Below are positions 1,969 to 16,991 of a stretch of DNA of 32,987 nucleotides, piece by piece; within the stretch, counting starts at the first letter, position 1, and each line of letters opens with the position of its first letter. Source of the DNA: Chitinophagales bacterium (GTDB taxonomy: Bacteria; Bacteroidota; Bacteroidia; Chitinophagales; Saprospiraceae). The translations under genes and the position numbers were made by a program. The notes under the pieces are model-generated. The model made no database searches. It saw nothing but the letters and a program-made list of their open reading frames with translations, and was not told the origin of the DNA. The stretch is from assembly GCA_013299105.1 (NCBI GenBank), contig JAAFJY010000051.1, positions 1 to 32,987 of the forward strand. Reading direction: 5' to 3'.

Positions 1969-3006
1969 CTATGGTAGCTCAGGGGCGCGAATGACCACGA
2001 TTTCTCCGTCGGTTGTCCCGATGGCCAGGTGGAGATCATCTGGCGACCAAGCCAGGCAACTGATGCACGACCTCATGCGATAAGCACCGTAGCACAACAG
2101 GTCTTCAGCTTGGGCATGGAAAAACCGCAAACCACCTCCTTCATCCGCCGAAGCAAAACAGGACCCTTGGTTTTGGTACCGAATTGCGGTGATTTTTTCT
2201 TCGTGTTCGTCGATTGTCCAGGGTATTTGGCCAGCGGGTGATTGTCCTGCAAAACGCCAAACGACAATGTCAGACCAGCAGTTGGTAAGTAAGAATTCAG
2301 CGCGGGCATCCCATTCCAAAATTTTGACTTTCCCTTGGTAGCCTGACATCTCAAAATCTTGGCCAAATTCATAAGGCTGGGGAAAAAAATGAATCCTTGA
2401 ATCCTGGGTCCCACAACCGATGAACTTGCCGTCAGGAGACCAGGACATTGAGAGCATGGAATTCTTCCAAGGCATGTTTTGTAGGGGTTCTGAAGCAGTT
2501 AAACCAAAAATCCGAACGCCCCCAAAACAGGCAGTTGCAAAAGAAAGCCCATTTGGATGCCAGCAGATGCTCGATACTGTACTCTCATGTTTTTCACTCT
2601 GGTAGATGAGTTTGCCATTCGAATCAATGAGTGCAACTCTGGGGCCAGTGCCCAAGACAGCATAATTTCCATTTGGCGACCAGACTGCGCATTCTACCCA
2701 AGCCGAATTGGCCTGGTGGTCTGCCAACAAGGAGAAAGTATCGAGGTTCCAAAGCTTGAACCGTCCGTCTTGCCCTCCACTCACGACCAAGGACTGCTGA
2801 GGGGAAACTGCGAGGCAGAGCATGGCATCGTGGGCTTGCCACTCATGCACTACTTCACGATTGAATACATCAAAGACTTGCACCATGCCAGCAGAATCAC
2901 CGCTGATGAGGTGCTTTCCATCCCCTGACCAGCAGACATTCAGGATGTAATCATCCAATAAGCTGGTGAATAGCTCGGAATTGTACGGTGTCATTTTGTT
3001 GCGCAT
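1969..3006 (-). CDS. WD40 repeat protein
   Basis: This 345-aa protein is made almost entirely of WD40-type beta-propeller repeats. Recurrent motifs include VCWSGDGKHLISGDSAG, VSPQQSLVVSGGQDGRFKLWN, VWSPNGNYAVLGTG, ICWHPNGLSFATACFGG, MSWSPDGKFIGCGTQDSRI and LAWSPDDLHLAIGTTDGEI, enough for about seven blades. It has no signal peptide or enzymatic domain, so it is probably a cytoplasmic scaffold. It starts 15 bp after the stop of the COG0523 GTPase gene and is probably translated from the same mRNA. That linkage suggests a partner role for the GTPase or metal pathway, which is inference only. Met5 (2994) is an alternative start. Confidence 0.85.
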   Translation of the reverse strand: MRNKMTPYNSELFTSLLDDYILNVCWSGDGKHLISGDSAGMVQVFDVFNREVVHEWQAHDAMLCLAVSPQQSLVVSGGQDGRFKLWNLDTFSLLADHQANSAWVECAVWSPNGNYAVLGTGPRVALIDSNGKLIYQSEKHESTVSSICWHPNGLSFATACFGGVRIFGLTASEPLQNMPWKNSMLSMSWSPDGKFIGCGTQDSRIHFFPQPYEFGQDFEMSGYQGKVKILEWDARAEFLLTNCWSDIVVWRFAGQSPAGQIPWTIDEHEEKITAIRYQNQGSCFASADEGGGLRFFHAQAEDLLCYGAYRMRSCISCLAWSPDDLHLAIGTTDGEIVVIRAPELP

Positions 3007-3021
3007 CGGGTATTGGGAAAA

Positions 3022-4380
3022 CTACCTGCTGGAAGCCAGGCAAGCATTAAAGCCCTTGGTCAACTCCTGGCGGTCTAAATTCCTACCAATGAAAATCAAT
3101 TGGTTCATTCGTTTTTCACTGGGCTTCCAATTGCGGTCACTTTTCGCTTCAAAAAGCATGTGTACTCCCTGAAAAACGAATCGTTCATCACGGTCTGCGA
3201 TATTCAGCACTCCCTTTGATCGGAAAATATCAGTACCCCGCTCACTCAACAACCAGCCAATCCATTGATTCAATTTTTGCAAATTCAAAGCTCCCGTAGA
3301 TTCAATTCCAACGGATTCTACCGTTTCATCATGCTCGTGACCGTGCGCATATTCCTCACTTTGAATAGCTTGTACCGGAATGTTATTTTGCTGGATCGTC
3401 AGGTTGAATTCATCCGGCCCATGTTGGGTGTAGAGAGCGTATAATCCGGTTTTATGAGGGTGCAATCTGAAACTTGCCCCTTTCTTTTCATCAATGAGCA
3501 AACGGCTGAGGGCTCCAGTGCTGGGGATGAATTTCCCACTTTTCAGCACTTTATATGCTTCGGAGAATTGCTTTACGGCTTTTTTCTTGGCTTTGCTTAA
3601 CTGTTCTTCATCCAATTTATCAAGTGGAATGAAAAGTGTATCCATACTAGGGTCAGGGCCTGCGTCAAAGGTCACGGTGTATTCATCATCGTTGTACAAA
3701 TAATAAACACCCATCCATTCAAAGGGCAACTCTTCGGTCAAAAAAGCAGGATTGATCTCCGCTTTAGCTGCCAGGTCAAATGCACGGATATTGAGGATTT
3801 TATCCATGCCAATGGCTGCGTTTTCCGTTTGGTGAACTTGGGCCTGGCTGTTCATGCGCTGGATGCGTTTGCTCAGTTGATCGAGCTCATTTTCAGTAAC
3901 CAAGTCGGTTTTATTCAACAAGATCACATCAGCGAAACCAATCTGTTCTTTGCACTCATCCGAATCGTCAATGTGTTGCCACACGTGTTTGGCATCAACA
4001 ATGGTAATGATTGCATCAAGAGAGAACATTTCTTTCATATCATCATCCACCCAGAAGGTTTGGGCTACGGGTGCCGGATTGGCCATCCCCGTAGTTTCGA
4101 TGATGATGTGGTCAAATTTGTCTCGGCGCTTCATGAGTTGTCCCAGAATTCTGATCAAATCACCACGCACTGTGCAGCAAATACAACCATTGTTCATTTC
4201 GAATATCTCCTCGTCGGCTTCAATGACCAATTCGTTGTCGATGCCAATTTCGCCAAATTCATTTTCGATCACCGCGATCCGTTGGCCGTGGTTTTCACGA
4301 AGAATGCGGTTGAGCAAAGTGGTTTTCCCGCTGCCTAGGTAGCCAGTTAAAACGGTGACTGGTATGGGTTGAGTTGTCAT
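3022..4380 (-). CDS. COG0523 family GTPase (CobW/ZNG1-type putative metallochaperone)
   Basis: This 452-aa P-loop GTPase of the G3E/COG0523 family has a Walker [10 protein letters not shown] (13-21), the diagnostic metal-binding CxCC (Cys66-Ile-Cys68-Cys69 in NNGCICC), [14 protein letters not shown] (switch/Walker B region), and LNKTD as the guanine-specificity motif. A CobW_C domain follows. A His/acid cluster, HGHEHDE, lies near residue 340 and is typical of zinc or cobalt handling members. The frame is open to 4461, but the ATG at 4380 begins [13 protein letters not shown] immediately before the P-loop, as in the family. Its position in an operon with a NiCoT transporter, behind a Fur/Zur-type operator, supports metal delivery under limitation. 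The client protein is unknown. A second, divergent paralog lies at 9671-10885. Confidence 0.9.
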
Positions 4381-4569
4381 GCTTGGTTTTTGTTTATAGG
4401 TGACTATCCAGCCGGTCCCATTTTGGCCAAAAAAGGCCGATTTCCGCCCCCTCTTCGCCATTTTTTTTCGCCGATGCTGGGCATCGACTACAAAAAATAG
4501 GCTTGATGGGACTAAAATCGCCTGCTTTTTTGTCTCAAAACCACTCGACTGGATAGCTACATTTGTAGA
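4381..4569 (-). other. 189-bp intra-operon leader with nested inverted repeats
   Basis: This gap precedes the COG0523 gene on the minus strand and is much longer than the other gaps in the operon (4-43 bp). It contains nested complementary arms: ctatccag (4404-4411) with ctggatag (4549-4556), and gtcccat (4415-4421) with atgggac (4506-4512). A central perfect hairpin, cgatgc-tgg-gcatcg, lies at 4472-4486. The transcript could fold into a branched leader. I recognise no riboswitch class. Confidence 0.4.
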
Positions 4570-4899
4570 TTATATATGCATTTCTTTGGCATTCCATTCA
4601 TACAGCAACTGTTCGGGCCAAACCTCATCCTGTTTCAATACTTGCTCTACAAAATGAGGGGCTAGTTCTGGGGTGATGCCTTTGTAATAATGGCATTCTG
4701 GTAGCACAATGACTATCGGGCCATCATTACAGCGGCCATTGCAGAGGGTTTTGGTAGTGTGAATCTCTTCATCCATGCCTTGTTCGGTAATGATCCTGCG
4801 GATTTCAACCGTGCTTTCTTCTGCGCCATTGTTTTTGCAAGAACCTCCATTGCAGAAGAAGAGATGTCGGCGAACTTTGCTTAGGTCTTTGATGGCCAT
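4570..4899 (-). CDS. (2Fe-2S) thioredoxin-like ferredoxin domain protein
   Basis: This 109-aa protein has the cysteine layout of thioredoxin-like [2Fe-2S] ferredoxins: Cys16 and Cys21 in FFCNGGSCKNNG, then Cys53 and Cys57 in LCNGRCNDGP, with an extra Cys69 in LPECHYYKGITPE. It is soluble and probably cytoplasmic. Its start lies 4 bp after the stop of the NiCoT transporter gene, so the two are probably translationally coupled. Similar small [2Fe-2S] proteins occur in cobalamin/metal loci (the CbiW type), where their role in electron transfer or metal handling is poorly known. The assignment to the fold is good. The function is inferred from context only. Confidence 0.82.
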   Translation of the reverse strand: MAIKDLSKVRRHLFFCNGGSCKNNGAEESTVEIRRIITEQGMDEEIHTTKTLCNGRCNDGPIVIVLPECHYYKGITPELAPHFVEQVLKQDEVWPEQLLYEWNAKEMHI

Positions 4900-4903
4900 G
4901 TTG

Positions 4904-5713
4904 TCATGTTTTTTTTAGGTTTCTGCGTCTCCACAAAAGCCAGGTATAGAGCGCAAGTACAATACATAAAAAACAGATGCCAATTGCAGAATAGACTGTT
5001 TCATTCAATTGTACGCTGGGATAAAAATGCAAGAGGATCGCATAAGCCGCAATGCAGTAAGCCATGATTACGATAAACCAACCCAGCCCGCGTCGGTAGC
5101 TGCGCATGGACTCACGCCCATGTACATTTTTTAAAAGTGCAGTCAGGATATAGCTGTCCAAAGTATCGGCAGTAATCATCCCGATTGAAAATACCAAGCC
5201 GATGACCAGCGCACCTCCAACCCCATGTGAATTTGAAGCGGCAATGCCCCAGGTTGCAGCTTGGGTGGCTGTATCAAAAACCAACCCAAAAATGATACCG
5301 ATAATGAATACTCCAAGTGGACGGGCATTGTCGCGCAATGCTGATGGCAGGATCAAGGTACGCCAGCCTTTTATTTTGTATTGCTCCTGGGTTGGGGATA
5401 AAAGGTTTAGCAGGTTGATACTTCCAACTAGAATAAGTAGAAATACGGGAAGCCATTCAAACCAGGCATTCCAAAAAACGCCCAATTGCCAACGGCCACT
5501 GAAAAAGGCGAATAATACCGCAATGCTGGTTACAGCCAGCCCGTGCCCCAAGGCAAACAATGCGCCAATCCAAGGGGCCAAATGAGGGCGTCGTTGATGA
5601 TTTTGTAAAGTAATGCCGTCAATAACTGCAATATGATCTGGATCCAGGCCGTGCTGCAGCCCAATCAAAAAGATGATCATCAAGCCATTCAGGTCGAAGT
5701 TGATTGCTTCCAT
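4904..5713 (-). CDS. NiCoT/HoxN-family divalent metal transporter
   Basis: This 269-aa polytopic inner-membrane protein carries the NiCoT signatures: HX4DH in TM2 (His21, Asp26, His27 in QHGLDPDHIAVID), LGHGLAVTSIAV, GLVFDTATQAA and GMITADTLDSYIL. About eight hydrophobic segments are visible. The family imports Ni2+ or Co2+ with high affinity. The metal here is uncertain: the neighbours are COG0523 GTPases and a Fur/Zur-like operator rather than a urease, hydrogenase or visible cobalamin genes. Zinc or cobalt transport is therefore possible. It starts 28 bp after the 70-aa ORF stop. Confidence 0.88.
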   Translation of the reverse strand: MEAINFDLNGLMIIFLIGLQHGLDPDHIAVIDGITLQNHQRRPHLAPWIGALFALGHGLAVTSIAVLFAFFSGRWQLGVFWNAWFEWLPVFLLILVGSINLLNLLSPTQEQYKIKGWRTLILPSALRDNARPLGVFIIGIIFGLVFDTATQAATWGIAASNSHGVGGALVIGLVFSIGMITADTLDSYILTALLKNVHGRESMRSYRRGLGWFIVIMAYCIAAYAILLHFYPSVQLNETVYSAIGICFLCIVLALYTWLLWRRRNLKKT

Positions 5714-5741: not shown

Positions 5742-5954
5742 TCAACTCTTTTGTACTTCTGAAAGTGCCTGTTCAAACCAGCTGACAACAAGCCTGGTAT
5801 GTTCCTTGCCGTAATGCTGAATGAATTCGAGGGTCTTGGGATGCTCTTTATCTCCCAACTCAGCAAGGCGTTGCTGGATGAAGTTAGGTTCCAGCTTGAT
5901 TTTACACTCTTCTTGGATGCAGTGTTTCCACGCTTGATAGGTGTTAGGAATCAT
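5742..5954 (-). CDS. Small protein of unknown function, first gene of metal operon
   Basis: This 70-aa protein is predicted to be soluble and helical (MIPNTYQAWKHCIQEECKIK...). It has two cysteines, Cys12 and Cys17, and histidines in KEHPKTLEFIQHYGKEH. There is no signal peptide or membrane segment, and I do not recognise the family. It lies directly behind the minus-strand promoter and operator (start about 60 bp from the operator) and 28 bp ahead of the transporter gene, so it is probably a real co-regulated gene. The Cys/His content is compatible with metal binding but does not prove it. Confidence 0.7.
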   Translation of the reverse strand: MIPNTYQAWKHCIQEECKIKLEPNFIQQRLAELGDKEHPKTLEFIQHYGKEHTRLVVSWFEQALSEVQKS

Positions 5955-6017
5955 TGGCTTTGGGTAGGTTTAATGGCCAGTTAAGACCAATTGATGGAAT
6001 TTATTTTTGAAACCATG

Positions 6018-6047
6018 TTGCAAAAATAGAGATATTCTTTAGATTTG
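6018..6047 (+). promoter_or_regulatory. Bacteroidota-type promoter for the ABC/TonB operon
   Basis: A -33 TTG (6018-6020), a 19-nt spacer and a -7 element TAGATTTG (6040-6047, consensus TAnnTTTG) lie 25 bp before the ATG at 6073. The -33 lies inside operator box 1 and the -7 overlaps box 2, so a bound repressor would block both elements. Confidence 0.75.
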
Positions 6048-6050
6048 CAA
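6021..6050 (-). promoter_or_regulatory. Bacteroidota-type promoter for the NiCoT/GTPase operon
   Basis: On the minus strand a -33 TTG (complement of 6048-6050), a 19-nt spacer and a -7 TATTTTTG (complement of 6021-6028) mirror the plus-strand promoter with the same spacing. The -33 lies in box 2 and the -7 overlaps box 1. Transcription would run into the 70-aa gene starting at 5954. Confidence 0.72.
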
Positions 6051-6072
6051 CATTGTTTCAAAAATACCGTAC

Positions 6073-6768
6073 ATGATTCTTGCTCAAGACCTGTCAAAAA
6101 ACTATGGCGAACACTTGGCCTTACAAAAGTTAAACCTCGATATCGCTCCGGGCGAAATCTTCTGTTTGTTGGGCCAAAACGGCGCTGGCAAAACCACGAC
6201 GATCAACTGCTTTTTGGGTTTTACGAGCCCCAGTTCAGGCCGTGCGATGATCAATGGCATTGATGTGGCCCAGGATCCTCAAGCCAGCAAACAACACTTG
6301 GCCTATTTGCCCGAAGTGGTGATGTTGTACCCTAACCTGAGCGGCTTGGAAAACCTAGACTATTTCAGTCGCCTGGCTGGTTTTCGTTACAGTAAATCGG
6401 AATTGCAAGACCTGCTCGTCCATGCGGGTTTGCCCCAAGAAAGCATGTCTCGCTACGTGGACACTTATTCCAAGGGCATGCGCCAAAAAGTTGGAATCGC
6501 CATCGCGATGGCCAAACAGGCCAAAGCCCTGTTTTTGGATGAACCTACCAGTGGCCTGGACCCCAAAGCCAGCAATGATTTTTCGGTATTGTTAAAAAAA
6601 TTGGCCCAGGATGGTGTCGCTATTTTGATGGCAACGCATGATATTTTTCGGGCCAAGGATGTCGCCTCACGGGTAGGCATCATGCGCGAGGGCCAATTGG
6701 TAGCTACCCATGCCGCCACTGAGTTTTCAGCTACTGAACTGGAGAAGATTTATTTGGAAACGGTCTGA
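6073..6768 (+). CDS. ABC transporter ATP-binding protein (ABC-2 type)
   Basis: This 231-aa ATPase subunit has a Walker A GQNGAGKTT (34-42), a signature-like YSKGMRQ (132-138), a Walker B LFLDEP (153-158), the D-loop SGLDP and an H-loop His189 (ATHD). It lacks membrane segments and would energise the permeases encoded directly downstream, 18 bp away. It is the only ATPase gene in a cluster with four permease genes, so it may serve both permease pairs. The start ATG lies 8 bp after operator box 2 ends and has no Shine-Dalgarno, as is usual in Bacteroidota. The substrate is unknown. Confidence 0.92.
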   Translation: MILAQDLSKNYGEHLALQKLNLDIAPGEIFCLLGQNGAGKTTTINCFLGFTSPSSGRAMINGIDVAQDPQASKQHLAYLPEVVMLYPNLSGLENLDYFSRLAGFRYSKSELQDLLVHAGLPQESMSRYVDTYSKGMRQKVGIAIAMAKQAKALFLDEPTSGLDPKASNDFSVLLKKLAQDGVAILMATHDIFRAKDVASRVGIMREGQLVATHAATEFSATELEKIYLETV

Positions 6769-6786: not shown

Positions 6787-8214
6787 ATGTTGAAGCAAAT
6801 TATTCAAAATGAATGGCGCATTGCCTGGCGCGAGCGGCAGTTGTCGGTGCTGTGGCTCTTGATTGCTGCCTTGTTGTTGTTTGCTACTTTGAGTGGCTGG
6901 CAAAATTTCCAACGCATCCAACACGAACGACAAGAGGCTGCGGACTTGATGCGCAAAAAATGGGAAGGCCAGGGTGCTCAAAACCCCCATTCTTCGGCGC
7001 ATTACGGCACTTATGTGTTCAAGCCCAGCTCAATATTGTACTTCTTAGACCCTGGTATCGACAAATTCTCAGGCGTTTCGCTACGTTTAGAAGGGCACGT
7101 GCAGCATGGTTTGGCCTTCGCTCCTGCTGCCGAGCAAAGCAGTCTCAGCCGTTTTGGAGACCTGAATACGGGACTGATTTTGCAGGTTTTGGTGCCGCTC
7201 CTGCTCCTCTTTTTGGCTTTCAACAGCGTACAGCGCGAGCGAAGCTCTGGTTCCATGCGCCTTTTGCTGGCGCAGGGCATTTCCATTCGCACCCTGTTGT
7301 GGGGCAAAATATTGGCCAATTGGAGCGTGTCTCTGGTTTTGTTGTTGCTCGTTGTGTTACTGGGACTTGGTTTGAGTTTTAGCCAGGGGCAACTCACTCA
7401 AAACCCGGATGTATGGACTCGTTTTGGGGGATTGTTGCTTTTGTATGCGGTCTATTACCTGATCATTGGCATGTTGGGGATTCAATTAGCCGCTGCGGTT
7501 CGTCAACCTGCTTTCGGACTGTTGCTCTTGCTCGGGGTTTGGGTATCGAGCAGCATTGTTTTGCCCAAAATGGCCAGTACCTGGGCCGAACAACGCCACC
7601 CGCTGTTGGGGATCATGCAGTTCAACCAGCAAATGCGGGAAGAAAGGGAAAAAGGCCTAAATGGGCACGACCCTGAAGATGAGCGCTCCAAGCGATTTGA
7701 ACAGAAAATTTTGGCCAAATACCAGGTGGAAAAACTGTCAGCATTACCGATCAACTATGATGGTTTGTTGATGCAGGAGGACGAATACTATGGAAACGCC
7801 GTATGGGATAAACATTTTGGCAAGCATTACCAAAATCTACAAAAGCAGTCCCAGCAACTTGCCCTGACCAGCTTTGTCAACCCTTTCCAAGCCTTGCGCA
7901 ACCTCAGCCTCGCTTGCGCCAATACCGATTTGTACCAATTTCTGCATTTTCAAAAAGCGGCAGAAATGTACCGCCGCGACCTCATTCGGGGTTTGAATGA
8001 GAAAATGGCTTACGGTGGCTCCAAAACGGGCGATTGGGAGTGGAAAGTTTCTCAAAAATGGCTGGCAGAACGCCCTGATTTCAATTACGTACCCCCTGCA
8101 ATGGGCTGGTCGCTCCAACAACGCAAAACAGAAATCATCGCCCTTGCTTCTTGGTTGCTGCTTTTGTGCGCTACCCTCTTTTTACCCTGGTGGAAAGCAG
8201 CTCGTTTGATCTGA
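6787..8214 (+). CDS. ABC-2 permease, DUF3526 type (pair 1, subunit A)
   Basis: This 475-aa membrane protein has TM1 at about 19-40, a first extracytoplasmic loop, a cluster of TM segments between about 127 and 262, a second large extracytoplasmic domain (about 265-445) and a last TM near 450-470. This matches ABC-2 permeases of the DUF3526 group that pair with a stand-alone ATPase. The motif FLAFNSVQRERSSGSMRLLL is the cytoplasmic coupling region seen in this group. It is clearly paralogous to 13275-14714: both share GWQN, WEG...HYG, RFGD and LPxNYxG motifs at corresponding positions. Such systems are proposed to export or to act on the envelope. The cargo cannot be read from sequence. Confidence 0.85.
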   Translation: MLKQIIQNEWRIAWRERQLSVLWLLIAALLLFATLSGWQNFQRIQHERQEAADLMRKKWEGQGAQNPHSSAHYGTYVFKPSSILYFLDPGIDKFSGVSLRLEGHVQHGLAFAPAAEQSSLSRFGDLNTGLILQVLVPLLLLFLAFNSVQRERSSGSMRLLLAQGISIRTLLWGKILANWSVSLVLLLLVVLLGLGLSFSQGQLTQNPDVWTRFGGLLLLYAVYYLIIGMLGIQLAAAVRQPAFGLLLLLGVWVSSSIVLPKMASTWAEQRHPLLGIMQFNQQMREEREKGLNGHDPEDERSKRFEQKILAKYQVEKLSALPINYDGLLMQEDEYYGNAVWDKHFGKHYQNLQKQSQQLALTSFVNPFQALRNLSLACANTDLYQFLHFQKAAEMYRRDLIRGLNEKMAYGGSKTGDWEWKVSQKWLAERPDFNYVPPAMGWSLQQRKTEIIALASWLLLLCATLFLPWWKAARLI

Positions 8215-8243
8215 TTTCCTTATCCAGCTACAATCACAAAATC

Positions 8244-9644
8244 ATGGTAAGGACCATTTTTCGATACGAATTCAAACAGCTGCTGCGCAATAAAGTGTTG
8301 TGGGGCATGGCCATTTTTCTGGTGCTGTGCAGTGCTTATGCGATTGGGTATGGCCGGCGCGATTACCAGCAGTTTTCCAATCAAATCAGTGAAGTTCAGC
8401 AAAAGCAGGCAGAGACCTACCAAAAACTTTTGCCCCGCTACGACTCCTTGAGTAAATTGGGTGAAAAGGCACCCCAAGCCTTGAAGGGCGAATACGGAGA
8501 CCCCAGCATGGCCGATTGGTTCTACCGTCGCTATGCTACCTGGACGCCTTCAACCCTCAGCGCCTTGGCGATTGGGCAGCGGGATCAACAAACGCCTTTT
8601 CAACGCATTCGCATGTTTCGGAATGTATTGGTCCCGGAATTGGAAGAAATCAACAACCCGGAGCAACTCCTCACCGGGAATTTTGACTTGGGGTTTGTGT
8701 TGGTTTACCTCCTTCCTTTGCTGCTCATCGTGTTGGGATTCAACGCACTCAGCCATGACCGTGAACAGGGCATGCTCGCCTTGGTGCAAGTGCAGGGTGT
8801 GCGACCAGCACAACTCATGCGAACCCGCTTGTTTTTACACTTTTTGATCCTTTGGGGCATGGCTGCTTTGCTCATCACAGTCGCTTTTGCTTGGGTGAAT
8901 GCGGATTGGCAGCAATGGCCTTTGTGGATGATCGCTACGGGCTTGTGGTTGCTTTTCTGGTCGGGTATCCTGGCTTGGGTCAACCAATGGCGACAATCAT
9001 CCGCGTTCAATGCCACTGTTTTGGCGGGCTCCTGGATTTTGATCTTGATTTTGCTGCCTGCTGCGGTCAATTTCCTCAATGACAAGGTTCACCCGATTGA
9101 GCCGCCAGCCGAGTTCATGGCGGCTGCTCGTGACATTGAATACCAGGAATGGGAACGACCTGTTGCGCAAGTGGTAGCCGATTTTCGGCGCTTGCGCCCC
9201 GATTTGTCAAGCATCGCGATCCGTGATACCCAGGCTGCACAAATCTATTTTTACAACGAGGTGATCATGTCCAAGATCAATTTACAAGGGACCAACTTGC
9301 AAACGACCAGGTTCAAGCGCATGGCCCTGGAAAAAAAGACCGCCCTGTTCAATCCTGCCTACGCTTACCATACTTTATTGACCCAGAGTGCGGGCAGTGA
9401 GATCAGTAATTACGAGGATTGGTTCAGTCAGGTAAAGCAGGTTTCTACGCAAAACCGGGATTATTTGCGTTCCCTGGGTTTCAACAAAAAATTGGTTACC
9501 CGCAAAGAACTGGATGAACTGCCCGTTTACAAGGCCTCTTTGACTTCGACAAATGTACTGGGCAATTTGCTTTTGATGCTCTTTTTGTGCCTGCTTACCT
9601 GGGGCTTGGCGGCCTTTCAAACCCGCAAAGCGCTTGCGTTGTAA
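8244..9644 (+). CDS. ABC-2 permease, DUF3526 type (pair 1, subunit B)
   Basis: This 466-aa membrane protein has TM1 at about 18-36, a soluble extracytoplasmic region containing [10 protein letters not shown], a TM cluster starting at [20 protein letters not shown], and a cytoplasmic DREQGM element. A second large soluble domain and a final TM near the C-terminus follow. It starts at the ATG at 8244, 29 bp after subunit A; the open frame to 8151 only overlaps subunit A and would add unrelated sequence. It is paralogous to 14717-16069 (shared IGQRD, LLxGNxD, FVLVYLxPLL, REqG). It probably forms a heterodimer with subunit A and uses the ATPase encoded at 6073. Confidence 0.85.
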
Positions 9645-9670
9645 AACTATTTCTTCAAAAATCACCCAAC

Positions 9671-10885
9671 ATGTCAACCCACAAAAAACTCCCTGTCACC
9701 GTTTTGAGCGGCTTTTTAGGCGCGGGAAAAACCACTTTGCTCAACCACGTTCTGCACAACAAAGAGGGCTTGAAAGTAGCCGTGATTGTCAATGACATGA
9801 GCGAGGTGAACATCGATGCCCGTTTGGTGGAACAGCAGAACACCCTTTCGCGCACCGAAGAAAAACTGGTGGAAATGAGCAATGGCTGCATCTGCTGCAC
9901 CTTGCGCGAAGACCTGATGTTGGAAGTAGAACGCCTGGCCAAGGAGGGACGTTTTGACTACCTTTTGATCGAAAGTACGGGCATTTCTGAACCCGTGCCA
10001 GTGGCCCAAACCTTCAGTTTTGTTGATGAAGAAAACGGCATTGACCTTTCTCGTTGGTCCTACATCGACACCATGGTGACCGTTGTGGACGCTTACAATT
10101 TTCCACAGGATTTTGGCAGCAACCAAACCGTTGCGGACCGCGAACTGCAAAGTGGAGAAAACGATTTCCGGCCCATCGTCAATTTGCTCACTGACCAAGT
10201 TGAATTTGCGGATGTGATCATCCTCAATAAAGCCGACCTGGTGCCTGCCGAGCGCCTTGCTGAAATGGTGGCCATGCTGCAAAAACTCAACCAAGGGGCC
10301 AAAATCATTTACACCCAATTCGGTAAAGTCGCCCCGGTCGAAATTCTCAATACGGGGCGTTTTGACTACGAAATTGCCTCCACTTCTGCGGGTTGGATCC
10401 GGGAATTGATGAACCTGGGAGCCCATACGCCCGAAACCGAGGAATATGGTTTCAGTTCTTTTGTTTTTCGCGACAAAAGGCCCTTTCATCCCCAGCGTTT
10501 CTGGAAATACCTCTGCGAAGACTTTGATGCAGGCATTGTGCGCAGCAAGGGCATGTTTTGGCTGGCTTCTCGCCCCGGTGAGGCCCTCAATTGGAGCCAG
10601 GCCGGAGGCTCTTTGCAAGCTTCGCACGCTGGCCATTGGTGGGCCAGCATGTCACTGACGCGCCGGATTCAAATGCCCGCTTTTTTGGAAGCACAAGAAG
10701 AAATTGAAAAGGACTGGGACAAGGAATTCGGCGATCGCCACAACGAACTGGTGTTCATCGGCCAGGACCTGGATCAAACCCTCATCAAAATGGAACTTCG
10801 TGCCTGCCTGTGTACCCCTGAAGAGGTGGAGCAGATGTGGCAAAGCAAAGCTTTTGAAGACCCTTTTCCCATAACGTTGAATTGA
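9671..10885 (+). CDS. COG0523 GTPase, ZigA/YciC-like zinc metallochaperone
   Basis: This 404-aa G3E GTPase has a Walker [10 protein letters not shown] (14-22), the metal-binding CxCC (Cys73, Cys75, Cys76 in SNGCICC), [23 protein letters not shown], and the CobW_C motif [18 protein letters not shown]. The length and motifs fit the YciC/ZagA/ZigA subgroup, whose characterised members are Zur-repressed and act in zinc starvation. The ATG at 9671, 26 bp after permease B, is chosen because it begins just before the P-loop; the frame upstream to 9587 overlaps the permease gene. This gene is the best evidence that the operon responds to zinc. It is divergent from the paralog at 3022-4380, so the two may have different clients. 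Confidence 0.9.
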
Positions 10886-10894
10886 TTTCCTCGC

Positions 10895-10923
10895 AAAACC
10901 GGGTCACTCACCCCGGGTTTTTT
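10895..10923 (+). terminator. Terminator-like hairpin upstream of TonB receptor gene
   Basis: aaaaccggg (10895-10903) pairs with ccc-g-ggtttt (10912-10921) with one bulged G and a short loop, followed by a T run. It lies in the 54-bp gap between the GTPase and receptor genes, so it may attenuate read-through instead of ending the operon. Confidence 0.5.
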
Positions 10924-10939
10924 ACAATATCATCTAACT

Positions 10940-13222
10940 ATGCACATCAAAACTACTTTATTGTTCCTGTTTTTGAGCACAGGACTTTTTGCACAAACAA
11001 CAGCGGACGTAACACCCGACACGATCAAAAAACTGGAACTTCAAACCGTCGAAATCGTTGGCCGACTGAAGAAAGATTACAACAGTGATTATTCTTTCTC
11101 TGCTACCAAAATGGCCATTCTGAACAAGGAATTGCCCCAATCCATTGGCACCGTCACCAAGGAGTTGATCGCCGACCGCCAGGCATTTCAACTGGCCGAT
11201 GCGGTAAAAATCACCAGTGGGGTCATCCCATCCAGTTTTTACAACCAGTATGCCATTCGGGGGATCAGCCAAAACGAAGAAGGCCAGATCATCAATGGGA
11301 TGCGCACCCGCCAGTTTTACTTTTTGCAGCCGCTGACTACCAACATTGAAAGGGTCGAAGTGTTGAAAGGTCCGGCCAGCGCCACTTTCGCCAGCGTAGA
11401 TCCCGGTGGCAGCGTGAACATGGTGACCAAAAAGCCACTCGAACAAACCCGCCGCGAAGTAAGCATGAGCGTGGGTAGTTTCAGCACTTTTCGGGGTACT
11501 TTGGACTTTACTGGGCCATTGAACGAGGCCAAGACCTTGTTGTACCGCGTCAATGGCGCTTACCAGGAGGCCCGGTCGTACCGCGATTTGGTGGGCAACA
11601 AGTCCCTGTTGATTTCGCCTTCATTCAGCTATCTGCCCAACAAAAAGACAGCCATCAACGCTGAATTGATCTTCAGCAACATGAATGGTACCCTTGACCG
11701 GGGGCAGCCCATTTTTGGCGCTCAAGCGGGCGTGACCAACCTCAACAGTACCCCGATCAGCCTCAACTTGGGAGCCACCAACGATTTTTTTAAGTCCAAG
11801 GAACTGATCCTGATGGGTAATTTTACGCACAATTTTACCCCTAATATCAGTTTCAACACGGCTTACATGAAGCAGTCCTGGACCGAAAATCTCCAGGAGC
11901 ACCGTACCACCAATGCTTTTGCAGTGGACATTGAAAACAAACCCGTTACGAGCCTGGCCGCCATGCAGTTTGTGCAACGCCAACAGTACTGGAACATCGA
12001 CAACCTGAGTTCTTATTTCAATTTCAAAGTAAAAACAGGAGGCCTTCAGCACCAGATTTTACTGGGATACGACCTCAACTATTGGGAGAAAACCAAAGGC
12101 GGCGGCCAAAATGCTGCGCGTGGTTTTTTGCTGAAGGACGGAACGGTTGCGGGGTCTTTTGCCTTGGCCAATGCCGCCAACTACCAGACCATCACGGTGG
12201 CTGGGCGCACTTTACCCCGCCCCAATGTCAACCATTTTGATCTGAGCAATCCTACTTACACCATCCGGAATGTCAATGATTACGTGCTCAATGTGCGCAG
12301 CGCTCTGCCCGCAGCCCTGACCACCAACAACGCCATTTACATCCAGGAACACCTGAAATGGAACAAGTTGACCTTGCTACTCAGTTTGCGCCAGGAATGG
12401 TTTGAAGACATCACCAACTACGAAACGAACAACGAACTGGCTTTCCAAAACTCCAAGTTGCTGCCCCGCATTGGCGCAAGTTTTGCTTTGAGCAAGCAGG
12501 TGAATTTGTACGGCACCTACCTGCAAGGCTTCCAGCCGCAGTCAAATACCGTTACCCTGATGCCCAGCACCAGTGCATTCTTCGGTGCAACGCGTTCGGC
12601 AGCACAATTCCAGCCTTTGGAGAGCGATCTGAAGGAGTTGGGTGCCAAAATTGATTTGTTCAAGGGAAAAATGAGCTTGACCACGGCCATTTACGAGATC
12701 AACCAACGCAACATCCTGATGAACGCCAACGACCCGGCCAACCCCGATTTGTTGGTGCAGCGCGGTGCGGACCGCAGCCGGGGTTTTGAAATCGACCTTG
12801 CGGGTTACATCAATGAGCACTGGCAATTGAACGCCTCGTACAGCTACATCGACGCCAAAATTGTGAACGATGCCAAAGCCGAATTGATTGGCCTCCGCAA
12901 AGAAAATACCCCTGTCAACAGCGCCAACTTGTGGACCCGTTTCAATTTTGGCCTGAACTCGCCCCTGCACGACCTGGGCATTGGCCTGGGCATACAGCAC
13001 CAGGGCAGCCGGATTCCTTGGTTCAATAGGGCCTTTGAAGTGCCAGCTTTTACCATTTTTGACGCGGCCTTGTACTACACACCAGCCAAAAGCAATGTTC
13101 AAATAGCCCTCAATGCCAATAACCTGTTCAATACCACTTATTGGATTGGGGCCCAAAACTACTTGCGCCTGTTCCCAGGTGCGCCGCGCAACGTGATCCT
13201 GACCGCTACTTACCGATTCTGA
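10940..13222 (+). CDS. TonB-dependent outer-membrane receptor, siderophore type
   Basis: This 760-aa protein has a signal peptide (MHIKTTLLFLFLSTGLFAQ), no carboxypeptidase-like N-domain, a plug domain (about 60-170) with QSIGTVTKELIADRQ, YAIRGIS and IERVEVLKGPASATFA...GGSVNMVTKKP, then a 22-strand-type barrel ending in an aromatic residue (LTATYRF). These motifs match the TonB siderophore-receptor family (FhuE/FpvA-like) and not SusC. It would import a metal chelate across the outer membrane using TonB-ExbBD, which is not encoded here. Sitting next to a ZigA-like GTPase behind a Fur/Zur-type operator, it may take up a zinc, cobalt or iron complex. Hairpins on both sides suggest that its expression level is set separately. 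Confidence 0.9.
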   Translation: MHIKTTLLFLFLSTGLFAQTTADVTPDTIKKLELQTVEIVGRLKKDYNSDYSFSATKMAILNKELPQSIGTVTKELIADRQAFQLADAVKITSGVIPSSFYNQYAIRGISQNEEGQIINGMRTRQFYFLQPLTTNIERVEVLKGPASATFASVDPGGSVNMVTKKPLEQTRREVSMSVGSFSTFRGTLDFTGPLNEAKTLLYRVNGAYQEARSYRDLVGNKSLLISPSFSYLPNKKTAINAELIFSNMNGTLDRGQPIFGAQAGVTNLNSTPISLNLGATNDFFKSKELILMGNFTHNFTPNISFNTAYMKQSWTENLQEHRTTNAFAVDIENKPVTSLAAMQFVQRQQYWNIDNLSSYFNFKVKTGGLQHQILLGYDLNYWEKTKGGGQNAARGFLLKDGTVAGSFALANAANYQTITVAGRTLPRPNVNHFDLSNPTYTIRNVNDYVLNVRSALPAALTTNNAIYIQEHLKWNKLTLLLSLRQEWFEDITNYETNNELAFQNSKLLPRIGASFALSKQVNLYGTYLQGFQPQSNTVTLMPSTSAFFGATRSAAQFQPLESDLKELGAKIDLFKGKMSLTTAIYEINQRNILMNANDPANPDLLVQRGADRSRGFEIDLAGYINEHWQLNASYSYIDAKIVNDAKAELIGLRKENTPVNSANLWTRFNFGLNSPLHDLGIGLGIQHQGSRIPWFNRAFEVPAFTIFDAALYYTPAKSNVQIALNANNLFNTTYWIGAQNYLRLFPGAPRNVILTATYRF

Positions 13223-13232
13223 TCCCATCCGG

Positions 13233-13269
13233 CTGCCTGGGGGATTTTCCCCTGGGCAGTTTATTGTTT
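13233..13269 (+). terminator. Strong hairpin terminator after TonB receptor gene
   Basis: ctgcctggggg (13233-13243) pairs with cccctgggcag (13249-13259) over 11 bp, including two G-U pairs, with a 5-nt loop (atttt). It is followed by tttattgttt. It lies 6 bp before the next start codon at 13275, so the second permease pair would depend on read-through or on a promoter I do not see. Confidence 0.65.
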
Positions 13270-13274
13270 AGTCT

Positions 13275-14714
13275 ATGCAAAATAATCTTTTTCTCATCGC
13301 CAGGCAGCACTGGCGCAGTGTGCTGAGTTCAAAAGCCCTGCTCCCGCTTTTGAGCTTGTTCTATGTTTTGCTTTTGTATGCCACGCTTACGGGCTGGCAA
13401 AACTACCATGCCCAAAACCAAGTGCGCAAAAGCCAGCAGGCCCAGGTTCGGCACGATTGGGAAGGCAGTCCCGACAAGCACCCGCACCGGATGGCGCATT
13501 ATGGCTATTTAGCCTTTCGGATCAAGCACCCTTTGAGTATTTTTGACTACGGCCTGGAAAGCTACACGGGCAACGCCATTTTTTTGGAAGCCCACCGCCA
13601 AAATACCACCAATTTTTCGGAAGCCAGTTTTTCCAGCAGCCTCCTGCGATTTGGCGACATCAGCCTGGCCATGCTTTTGCAAATACTCCTGCCGCTACTG
13701 ATTTTCTTCCTGGGTTTCAACAGCATCAGCGCCGAAAGGGAAAACGGAACCTTGAAAATGCTGTTCGGGCAGGGGGTAAAGTGGAGTGAATTGCTGTTCG
13801 GCAAAACCCTGAGCCTTTTGGCCATTTCCAGCCTGTTCTTTTTACCCGCTGCTTTGGTTTTACTGGGCATTGGAATATTTGAAGCCGCCCAATTCAGTGA
13901 AAACCTCAGCCGGGTGGGGGTTTTGTTGGGTATTTACACCATATATATAGGTATCCTCTGTTTGGTGGCGGTAGGCGTTTCGGCCACCAGCCCCGGTTCC
14001 AAATCAGCCTTGCTGCGATTGTTGGGCTTGTGGTTGCTTTGGGCCATTGTATTGCCGCGCAGCACCCAGGCTTTGGGAAATTACCTGCATCCTTCACCCA
14101 GTAAAGTGGCTTTTGACGCCGCCATTGAGCACGATTTGATCCGTGAAGGAGACAGCCACAACCCCGATGATCCACACTACAAGGCCATCAAAGACTCGCT
14201 GCTGCGCGTTTACCAGGTCGATTCGGTGCAACAATTGCCCTTCAATTACAGTGGTTTCATCATGACTGAGGGGGAAAGGATCAGCGCCGACATCTACAAT
14301 CGCCACCTCAATCGGCTTTTGCAAATCTACGACCGACAAAACCGCCTCGCGGAAAGCAGTGCCTGGCTCAATCCGATTGCTGCACTTCGCAACAGCTCCA
14401 TGCGCCTGGCGGGAAGTGATTTTGCAGCCTACCGCCATTTTCAACAGCAAGCTGAGACTTTTCGCTACCACCTGGCTCAGGAAATGAACCGTTTGCAGAT
14501 GCGCCTCATCAGCAACAAAAAACTCGGACCGAATGACAAGCCCTACCAGATCAGCCGAAAATATTGGAGCGAACTCCACGATTTTGATTACCGCTTTTTG
14601 AGCATGAAACAACTCAATCCCAGCTTGTGGTCGGGCTACCTGGTTTTGTTGGCCTGGTTGATGGGCCTGCTCTTGGTGTTTTGGGTTTTGATCAAACGTT
14701 TACAAATTGTCTGA
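13275..14714 (+). CDS. ABC-2 permease, DUF3526 type (pair 2, subunit A)
   Basis: This 479-aa membrane protein has the same topology as 6787-8214: TM1 at about 24-42, an extracytoplasmic loop with WEGSPDKHPHRMAHYG and RFGD, a TM cluster starting LLQILLPLLIFFLGFNSI, a cytoplasmic AERENGTLKMLFGQG, a large soluble domain with LPFNYSGFIMTEGE, and a C-terminal TM. It is a diverged paralog of the first pair's subunit A, so the permease module has been duplicated. No dedicated ATPase lies beside it. It starts 52 bp after the TonB receptor stop. Confidence 0.85.
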   Translation: MQNNLFLIARQHWRSVLSSKALLPLLSLFYVLLLYATLTGWQNYHAQNQVRKSQQAQVRHDWEGSPDKHPHRMAHYGYLAFRIKHPLSIFDYGLESYTGNAIFLEAHRQNTTNFSEASFSSSLLRFGDISLAMLLQILLPLLIFFLGFNSISAERENGTLKMLFGQGVKWSELLFGKTLSLLAISSLFFLPAALVLLGIGIFEAAQFSENLSRVGVLLGIYTIYIGILCLVAVGVSATSPGSKSALLRLLGLWLLWAIVLPRSTQALGNYLHPSPSKVAFDAAIEHDLIREGDSHNPDDPHYKAIKDSLLRVYQVDSVQQLPFNYSGFIMTEGERISADIYNRHLNRLLQIYDRQNRLAESSAWLNPIAALRNSSMRLAGSDFAAYRHFQQQAETFRYHLAQEMNRLQMRLISNKKLGPNDKPYQISRKYWSELHDFDYRFLSMKQLNPSLWSGYLVLLAWLMGLLLVFWVLIKRLQIV

Positions 14715-14716
14715 GG

Positions 14717-16069
14717 ATGTATCAATTGGAAATCAAGCGCTTTTTGCGCAGCAAAGGAATGGTGAGTGCGCTACTGACCTTGTTGGTCATCGGCGTGCTT
14801 AGTTTATGCATCGGCCAGCAGTTTGTGCAAAAACAAACCCAGGCACAGGCCGAAATAGCCCGTTTTCAGGCGGAGCACATCAATCGCAATGTGCAGTTTT
14901 TTGACAAAGAAATGGGCCTTTTGCTCTACTACCTGCGTTTTACCCTGGTCAATTCCAGCCATCCGCTCAATGCCTTGTCCATTGGCCAAAGGGATGTCAA
15001 TAACTCCATCCAGAGCCTCACCATTCGGGGTTTGGAGAACCAGAAATACGATACTGACCTGCACAATCCGGTGAATTTATTGCTGGGCAATCTCGATTTC
15101 AGTTTTGTACTGGTGTATTTGTTTCCCTTGCTCATCATTGCTTTGAGCTATAACTTGCTGGCAGAGGAGCGGGAAGGGGGGACTTTGCGCTTATTGGCCA
15201 GCCAAACGGGGCAGGTTTCGCTGTTTTTGCTGCGCAAAATAGGCATCCGGGTCTTGGCAATTGGCCTGTGTTTGTTGATTTTATTGGGTGTTGCACTGTT
15301 CATGTTTCAATTGCCTTGGAATGCTGAGACCTTGGCTTTCTGTGCGATTGCCTTGGCTTATGTGTTGTTTTGGTTTTCACTCAGCGCCTGGGTCATTTCC
15401 TGGCAACGCAGTTCGGGCTTCAACGCAGCCATGCTGCTGGCTTTTTGGGTGTTATTGACCATTTTGGCCCCGGTGGGCATCAATGCTTACCTGATCAACC
15501 GCTATCCCGTACCGGAGGCTTTGAGTGTGATGGTGAAACAACGCGAGGGTTACCATGAAAAATGGGACCTGGACAAAGCAGTGACCATGGACAAGTTTTA
15601 CGCCCATTATCCACAGTTCAAACGCTTTCCATTGCCGGACAAAACTTTCAGTTGGCTGTGGTACTACGCCATGCAACAAATGGGCGACGATGAGTCGAGA
15701 GCAGCTACGCTTGAACTCAAAAGCAAGTTGAAACAACGAGAAGAAAGTAGCCGTAGGCTGGCCTATTTCTGTCCGCCGATTCACGCCCAGTTGAGTTTGA
15801 ATCACTTGGCTGGTGCAGATTTGTCCAACCATTTGCAGTTTTTAGAAGCCACCGCACGTTTTCACGAAAAAAATCGCCTCTATTTCTACCCGCGCATTTT
15901 TGGCGACGAACCTGTGCATAATGAAAAATGGGGTGCCTTTAAGGTGGAAAAATTTCAGGCTGCGGTCCCGATTAACTGGTTTTCAAGCCTTGGACCTTTG
16001 TTGCTTTTGAGTGTGGGGCTCCTTGGGTTTGGTCTTTATGGATTAAGGCAAATAAAAATTGAGCACTGA
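14717..16069 (+). CDS. ABC-2 permease, DUF3526 type (pair 2, subunit B)
   Basis: This 450-aa membrane protein is paralogous to 8244-9644 (shared LNALSIGQRD, LLLGNLDFSFVLVYLFPLL, a cytoplasmic EEREGGTLRLL and a C-terminal TM). The ATG at 14717 lies two bases after the TGA of subunit A (14712-14714), consistent with translational coupling; the longer frame to 14627 would overlap the upstream gene by 88 bp and only adds out-of-family sequence. It would form a heterodimer with the preceding gene product. It is the last gene of the plus-strand metal cluster, with 129 bp before the next gene. Confidence 0.85.
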   Translation: MYQLEIKRFLRSKGMVSALLTLLVIGVLSLCIGQQFVQKQTQAQAEIARFQAEHINRNVQFFDKEMGLLLYYLRFTLVNSSHPLNALSIGQRDVNNSIQSLTIRGLENQKYDTDLHNPVNLLLGNLDFSFVLVYLFPLLIIALSYNLLAEEREGGTLRLLASQTGQVSLFLLRKIGIRVLAIGLCLLILLGVALFMFQLPWNAETLAFCAIALAYVLFWFSLSAWVISWQRSSGFNAAMLLAFWVLLTILAPVGINAYLINRYPVPEALSVMVKQREGYHEKWDLDKAVTMDKFYAHYPQFKRFPLPDKTFSWLWYYAMQQMGDDESRAATLELKSKLKQREESSRRLAYFCPPIHAQLSLNHLAGADLSNHLQFLEATARFHEKNRLYFYPRIFGDEPVHNEKWGAFKVEKFQAAVPINWFSSLGPLLLLSVGLLGFGLYGLRQIKIEH

Positions 16070-16198: not shown

Positions 16199-16711
16199 AT
16201 GGCTGTTTTTAACCTACAGGTCAATGGAAAAAAAGTGACGCTTGACGTCGAGCCGGACATGCCCCTGCTCTGGGTGCTGCGCGATTTTGCTGGCCTCAAA
16301 GGTACCAAATACGGTTGTGGTATGGCCATGTGTGGCGCATGTACCGTACACTTGAACGGTCAGCCGATCCGCTCTTGCCAGACACCCGTTTCTTCCTTGA
16401 ACAAAAGTTCCAAAATCACCACCATCGAAGGAATTTCAGATGGGGTACAACTCCATGCCGTACAACAAGCCTGGATCGAAGAGCAAGTGCCCCAATGTGG
16501 CTATTGCCAATCTGGACAAATCATGTCGGCAGTGGCGCTGCTGAAAACCACGCCAGATCCCAGCGATGCTGACATTGATGGAGCCATGAACGGCCACTTG
16601 TGCCGCTGTGGTACTTACGACCGCATTCGCAAAGCCATCCACCGAGCCGCTGATTTGTCTAAATCCAGCGGAGCAGGCAGCCAAAAAGTTGGCAAAGCTG
16701 GTGGCAAGTAA
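16199..16711 (+). CDS. iorA: Isoquinoline 1-oxidoreductase-type alpha subunit, (2Fe-2S) protein
   Basis: This 170-aa electron-transfer subunit belongs to a xanthine oxidase-family molybdenum hydroxylase. The N-terminal plant-type [2Fe-2S] site uses Cys40, Cys45, Cys48 and Cys60 ([15 protein letters not shown]). The C-terminal [2Fe-2S]_2 site uses Cys100, Cys103, Cys135 and Cys137 (QCGYCQSGQ and HLCRCGTY). The length and two-cluster layout fit IorA. There is no signal peptide, so it would be co-exported with the Tat-signal partner at 16992. The C-terminal tail is rich in Lys, Gly and Ser. The symbol reflects family and not a tested substrate; aldehydes or N-heterocycles are typical substrates for the family. 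Confidence 0.85.
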
Positions 16712-16756
16712 ATTGAAAAGAGCGCCATTAAATCATGGGAAAGCAAAGTATCGCGT

Positions 16757-16917
16757 GTCAACGTCATGCTGGAAATCCGCAAGAAAGGGTGTGGAGTGTG
16801 TAAGTGTGAGTTCGGGTGTGGGGCTTCGAGCATAAGTTTAGTCTCCAATTGAAAACGGGGTTTTTCACACTCAAACCCAAACAAGCACACCCAAACCCAA
16901 TTTTATCCGTGTTCCTA
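16757..16917 (-). repeat. Dispersed intergenic repeat, copy 2 (inverted)
   Basis: The reverse complement matches 994-1160 in the same block order (ggaacac, G/T-rich run, cacacttacacactc, tcttgcggatt). It occupies most of the 280-bp gap between the two subunit genes of the molybdenum enzyme. Confidence 0.7.
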
Positions 16918-16991
16918 TTCAGGCCGCACAGCGGGCAACCCAGTCGCTTCTTTTCTAAACATTTATCAGTGGCTTTTTAAACCAAAATCGC

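Follow-up and report, generated by a model that had tools for sequence, protein, structure and literature searches.

A candidate double Zur operator around a bidirectional promoter between two metal gene clusters of a Saprospiraceae bacterium

Introduction

Two gene clusters with predicted functions in metal transport diverge from a short intergenic element on contig 47 of the 7.67-Mb genome of a Chitinophagales bacterium (Saprospiraceae), which raises the question of whether both are controlled from this element and, if so, by which regulator. The first-pass annotation of the locus had proposed two Fur/Zur-type operators arranged as an inverted pair across a divergent promoter. Here, this proposal was followed up in the window, defined as the whole stretch of 32,987 nucleotides that was analysed, in the own genome and in related genomes.

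Results

The intergenic region contains an inverted repeat at 6002..6066 with arms of 23 bp, of which 22/23 positions match; it was the best in the window, and the best repeat with 23-bp arms in 40 dinucleotide shuffles reached 19/23. Within this element lie two 19-bp Zur-type boxes, box 1 at 6006..6024 (TTTGAAACCATGTTGCAAA) and box 2 at 6044..6062 (TTTGCAACATTGTTTCAAA), which are imperfect palindromes with, respectively, 7/9 and 8/9 of the half-site pairs complementary. Box 1 is identical to the reverse complement of box 2 at 18/19 positions, and the inverted pair of 19-bp boxes described previously is real. Scoring with a 51-site matrix from other genomes, whose sites had been found with a first matrix or related patterns and were hand-chosen for promoter position, placed the two boxes as the top matches of the window (26.9 and 23.4; next match 11.2). 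The matrix behind most of the scans was trained on six sites of the own genome, so that own-genome scans are partly circular. A weaker box-like site was seen at 527-545 of the window, scoring 16.0 by the matrix of own-genome sites and 7.4 by that of the relatives, and Rfam gave no match in the window.

Bacteroidota promoters carry the elements TTG and TAnnTTTG. Promoter-like motifs of this kind, TTG-N19-TAnnTTTG, run across the boxes on each strand, as had been claimed: on the plus strand at 6018..6047 (TTG-N19-TAGATTTG), with the -33 TTG in box 1 and the TTTG of the -7 element in box 2, and on the minus strand at 6021..6050 (TTG-N19-TATTTTTG), with the -33 TTG in box 2 and the TTTG in box 1. 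The 33-kb window holds no matches to this motif other than these two, against a shuffle mean of 0.53, but by itself it is weak evidence because 10 of 100 shuffles also gave two matches; a sigma-70 scan of the window was uninformative (20 sites against 18.9 in shuffles). For both directions, the TTG occupies positions 13-15 of one box and the TTTG positions 1-4 of the other, while the TA pairs of the -7 elements belong to neither box. Since TTG and TTTG sit at fixed box positions, the distance D between the box centres sets both spacers (N = D - 19). The same spacer on both strands is therefore an arithmetic property of paired palindromes and not an independent sign of selection, and the earlier view that the identical 19-nt spacers look selected was abandoned; what is informative is how far apart the boxes lie (D) and the presence of the TA pairs.

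The plus-strand cluster starts with an ABC transporter ATPase (6073..6768), orthologs of which lie downstream of paired boxes in congeners and in another genus. It is followed by two ABC-2 permeases with DUF3526 (6787..8214 and 8151..9644, the latter with its first ATG 31 codons in), a COG0523 GTPase close to ZigA (9587..10885; 552.9 bits against a cut-off of 600; first ATG 28 codons in), a TonB-dependent receptor of the siderophore type (10940..13222; TIGR01783, 267.2 bits, above the cut-off), and two further ABC-2 permeases with DUF3526 (13275..14714 and 14627..16069, the latter with its first ATG 30 codons in). The word DUF3526 was absent from papers in an open-access text search. The minus-strand operon opens with a small protein of 70 amino acids without a Pfam family (5742..5954), with relatives in the box-linked clusters of L043 (47%) and L058 (45%), and continues with a NicO-family metal transporter (4904..5713), a [2Fe-2S] ferredoxin-like protein under the curated cut-offs (4570..4899) and a COG0523/CobW-type GTPase (3022..4461); a WD40 protein (1969..3006) probably belongs to it as well, judging from the spacing. 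At 16199-19148, past the plus-strand cluster, Pfam identifies a [2Fe-2S] subunit; with it lies a large protein that by eye resembles a molybdenum hydroxylase, and the two are probably a separate unit.

It had also been proposed that one element switches ten kilobases of metal genes. This is plausible, and the extent was trimmed because of terminator-like hairpins at 10899-10916 and 13231-13261 (43 hairpins of this kind were counted, and 27.9 in shuffles) and because the ortholog of the TonB receptor has a box pair of its own in a congener. Given the hairpins, the plus transcript may or may not extend to the TonB receptor and the two permeases behind it.

Searches of the own genome with the exact core TGMAACNNNGTTKCA returned six sites against five for the reversed control. 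The core count alone shows no enrichment, and the own-genome case rests on the context of the six sites: two are those of the window, one precedes zur on contig 3, one a TonB receptor of 768 amino acids on contig 23, and two lie on contig 20, one upstream of a 431-amino-acid protein with no Pfam assignment and the other upstream of an ABC ATPase frame that is broken. The contig 3 box starts 75 nt upstream of the zur start codon and is located between zur and genes for a DUF2946 protein and a TonB receptor matching the ZnuD model (98 bits; cut-off 950). The expectation that boxes of the own genome precede zinc genes was borne out at the zur/ZnuD-like locus; the site on contig 23 precedes another TonB receptor, and the genes near the two sites on contig 20 are less clear. 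ZnuA was not found in the own genome with PF01297, a profile that matched in 11/14 control genomes, so znuABC is not a target as far as searched. Among looser patterns, the 19-mer TTTGNAACNNNGTTNCAAA with two mismatches gave no signal at this stringency (86 genome sites against 89 in the control), and the 15-mer core with one mismatch gave 176 sites against 75, contexts being read for the exact sites. The classical Fur-like pattern TGATA-N1-12-TATCA gave 43 genome sites against 15 in the control, none of them on the contig of the window among the matches listed. In L063 (9307-9600), a strong box lies before an ABC ATPase whose reading frame breaks off shortly after the start and which looks like a remnant.

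The five genomes of the genus have 32 core sites against 19 in the control, and all 26 congener sites, comprising 23 scored stretches and three sites in L135, were read in context. Ten of the 23 scored 20 or more: four lie before a ZnuD-like receptor, three before orthologs of the ABC operon and three before a conserved protein of about 150 amino acids. The remaining 13 scored below 20, and 12 of them were marked inside reading frames; the script also marked four of the ten high scorers as within frames, via alternative starts or small spurious frames. A box stands directly before the ZnuD-like receptor adjoining zur in 4/4 congeners, and a reading frame separates the box from zur in all four. 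The protein of about 150 amino acids follows high-scoring boxes in three congeners (L164 2926, L173 3007, L179 3082) and was without a Pfam family in the only copy scanned (L179). The ABC-operon orthologs are those of L168 (87% identical) and of L177 and L174, the last two identified from contig-end fragments. L135, from congener G572, has a box pair before the ortholog of the TonB receptor of the window (88% over 760 amino acids) and a DUF3526 permease (71%), and two boxes lie upstream of another TonB receptor. The NicO protein as a probe gave two weak matches outside the own genome among 149 genomes of the order and none in G465, G572 or G578, which was too few to locate orthologous divergons.

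Two side observations were made in these congeners. A frame of 79 amino acids on the minus strand, flanking the box pair of L168 opposite the ABC operon (2164-2403; G572), starts Zur-like and then diverges, as judged by eye, and looks like a decayed Fur-family gene. At L174 (474-3999; G683), two genes that by eye begin like ribonucleotide reductase subunits flank one copy of the paired-box promoter opposite the ABC operon.

Boxes were also found in wider relatives. The 30 zur loci collected (96,986 positions) contained 14 sites scoring at least 16, against 0.4 in mononucleotide shuffles; by reading, and with the own locus included, 14/30 loci have a promoter-placed box and 16/30 are without one at this threshold. 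The box often lies between a SCO1-zur unit and a divergent MerC gene (Pfam: SCO1 in L084, MerC in L098). A separate collection of COG0523 loci had a box of at least 16 in 8/8 Bacteroidota-titled records versus 1/15 others, where the single box is within a reading frame; the eight Bacteroidota-titled loci hold 14 sites, where dinucleotide shuffles gave 0.84 on average and at most 4. With gene relationships checked by BLAST, the box precedes NicO-ferredoxin-COG0523 genes in L040, L042, L043 and L058, zur in L040 and L041, an ABC ATPase with two permeases in L058, a small protein preceding ZigA in L043, and HisI in L051 (by Pfam) and L053 (a HisI relative). Related boxes were thus present before other metal genes, namely zur, MerC, HisI and NicO/COG0523, as the first-pass annotation had anticipated. 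COG0523 relatives 55-56% identical occur in L045, L046 and L061, records titled Nitrosopumilus, and are either true homologs or misbinned contigs.

The strict pattern TTTGCAACNNNGTTGCAAA had eight sites in 295 genomes of the class and none in the control; by reading, 7/8 are promoter-placed and 1/8 is within a frame. The strict pattern WWTGCAACNNNGTTGCAWW was found in 25/40 genomes with a zur match versus 1/40 without (Fisher 4e-9, uncorrected for phylogeny and genome size), and its control in 0/80 genomes; the zur-bearing set was defined by completeness of at least 90% and zur E-values up to about 1e-20, weaker matches being excluded, and 15/40 of its genomes had no match to the pattern. The sole exception among the zur-less genomes, G010, has the box before a frame of 280 amino acids matching none of the reference proteins.

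The genome encodes two Fur-family proteins, Fur1 on contig 26 and a Zur-type protein of 142 amino acids on contig 3. The Zur-type protein carries the Fur-family domain (PF01475, 42.4-42.5 bits; cut-off 23.1), and its best solved relative is E. coli Zur (4mtd, E 1.4e-8), followed by M. tuberculosis FurB. Its best NCBIfam match is the Zur model, at 47.8 bits far under the cut-off of 167, and it lies under every NCBIfam cut-off shown; the name Zur consequently rests on several weaker lines. A Cys80-type residue and the CxxC pairs are metal-site ligands of Zur. Cys80 is found in 11 aligned proteins and is absent from Fur1, while C99, C102, C135 and C138, which form two CxxC pairs, are invariant in 12/12 aligned proteins. 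Fur1 matches the Fur family at 101.9 bits, with Fur-like models as best NCBIfam matches, none above the cut-off.

The first-pass annotation had left the operators as Fur/Zur-type. The evidence favours Zur over Fur: a box lies before the own zur and before zinc genes of relatives, and the exact box core was not found in 16 kb around fur1, where the best score with the relatives' matrix was 7.9. The reading of the boxes as iron operators bound by Fur1, with the operons as iron or siderophore genes, could draw on the TonB receptor of the window, which exceeds the cut-off of a siderophore-receptor model, and on the Fur-family match of Fur1 itself; it is nevertheless considered highly unlikely in view of the lack of a box in the fur1 region, the boxes at the own zur and beside the zur/ZnuD-like locus of four congeners, and those before HisI, MerC, NicO and COG0523 genes elsewhere. 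That the Zur-like protein senses another metal, e.g., nickel or cobalt, so that this would not be a zinc regulon, is very unlikely too. The NicO transporter and the CobW-type GTPases within the regulon would fit such a role, but the nearest solved relatives of the protein are zinc regulators, two matches below cut-off, of the GTPase at 9587-10885 to ZigA and of the receptor next to zur to ZnuD, point to zinc, and the box precedes HisI, paralogs of which are listed in Zur regulons in PMC2770081. The assignment of the boxes as Zur operators is therefore well supported by sequence and context, and the Zur-type protein would be expected to bind them.

The pairing of boxes seen in the window is recurrent. 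Direct inspection covered 13 pairs with a spacing of 37-40 bp, for whose selection TA was not used. The distance is 38 bp in the window, in L184 (G111, another genus, with an ABC ortholog 76% identical), in L136 and in L137, where the first box is weak (11.0). It is 37 bp at the ABC-operon orthologs L168 (G572), L177 and L174 (near-identical copies in one genome, G683), as well as in L102, L181 and L139, in which zur and a ZnuD-like receptor are divergent; 39 bp in L043 and in L182, at a ZnuD-like receptor; and 40 bp in L135. In all 13, TTG-N18-21-TAnnTTTG spans the two boxes on one strand or on both. The motif strand is directed away from the adjoining Fur-family gene in L136 and L181. Pairs at 34 bp (L141) and 28 bp (L144) also exist and do not give the usual spacer.

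A search with the pair pattern GTTGCAAA-N6-34-TTTGCAAC in 396 genomes found at least 75 sites, including that of the window. Among the matches listed, the gap was 18-21 in 9/75, and TA stood at the -7 place in 7/9 of these versus 7/66 with other gaps (Fisher 5e-5, the band 18-21 having been chosen after the data were seen). Contexts were read for ten of these sites among the matches listed, and six proved to be promoter-placed paired boxes. The pair-pattern sites of L138, L140, L142 and L143 had no paired boxes and were taken as chance.

The number of working promoters per pair deserves separate consideration. Palindromic boxes supply TTG and TTTG on both strands nearly free, and 9/13 pairs at 37-40 bp have the full motif on a single strand, so that one strand only might carry a working promoter and the other a by-product. 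For the window, this is unlikely: TA pairs are correctly placed on both strands there, as in L177, L174 and L135, which together are the 4/13 pairs with the full motif on both strands, and genes diverge both ways from the element. The earlier proposal of divergent repression by two dimers fits this arrangement, and orthologous ABC operons have retained the box pairs.

Discussion

Taken together, the sequence evidence points with high probability to a double Zur operator around a bidirectional promoter, at which two dimers would repress both operons in the presence of zinc. When zinc is sufficient, dimers of the Zur-type repressor encoded on contig 3 would occupy both 19-bp boxes. The dimer at one box would then cover the -33 TTG of a given direction, and the dimer at the other its -7 TTTG and probably also its start site, so that RNA polymerase would be blocked on both strands. 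Under zinc shortage, Zur would leave and both operons would be expressed, providing the ABC/DUF3526 transporter, the ZigA-like GTPase and perhaps the TonB receptor from the plus side, and the NicO transporter, the ferredoxin and the COG0523 GTPase from the minus side.

A broader reading joins three elements: a Zur code of the Bacteroidota's own (TTTGCAACANNGTTGCAAA), a recurrent "promoter clamp", and clamp-driven zinc uptake independent of ZnuABC at this locus; the chance that all three hold together is about even. If the clamp is true, the -33 TTG and the -7 TTTG fall inside two boxes 37-40 bp apart, the spacing of the operators cannot evolve separately from the promoter spacer (N = D - 19), and TA pairs are all that must be added for a palindromic box pair to fire both ways. 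The joint reading would make ABC/DUF3526, a siderophore-type TonB receptor and ZigA the zinc set of a genome in which no ZnuA was found. Apart from this reading, the analysis provides a defined candidate Zur box with which genomes of a large phylum can be searched, and with it a candidate zinc-starvation regulon of TonB receptors, DUF3526 ABC transporters, MerC and small unknown proteins. The geometry also suggests a simple route to a co-repressed divergent promoter, in which polymerase contacts lie within two palindromic operators at the right distance.

Compared with known systems, the putative promoters share with Bacteroidota TTG / TAnnTTTG promoters the two elements and the spacing class, and differ in that TTG and TTTG fall within operator boxes. 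The Zur operators of E. coli, B. subtilis, actinobacteria and cyanobacteria likewise combine a Fur-family repressor with a palindromic box over promoters, and their regulons contain, as here, zinc uptake genes, zur itself, TonB receptors and COG0523 GTPases. The letters of the box, TTTGCAACANNGTTGCAAA, differ from those of the Zur boxes known from other phyla. The B. subtilis yciC gene, which encodes a COG0523 protein, is reportedly preceded by two Zur boxes, a likeness to the present locus, but unlike it is not known to form a symmetric divergent promoter.

The open-access literature searched yielded no published Bacteroidota Zur box among the matches listed, and a description may exist in subscription papers, preprints or regulon databases. 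"Bacteroid" had no match in the accessible part of the review PMC6103462, nor had Bacteroidetes in the main text of PMC2770081, as far as that was accessible. Zur palindromes of the 9-1-9, 7-1-7 and 23-bp types are described in the same review (PMC6103462). According to it, E. coli Zur binds znuABC with two dimers at one promoter, which is also the number proposed here; at znuABC both dimers sit in one box, whereas here two boxes 38 bp apart flank the promoter spacer (PMC6103462).
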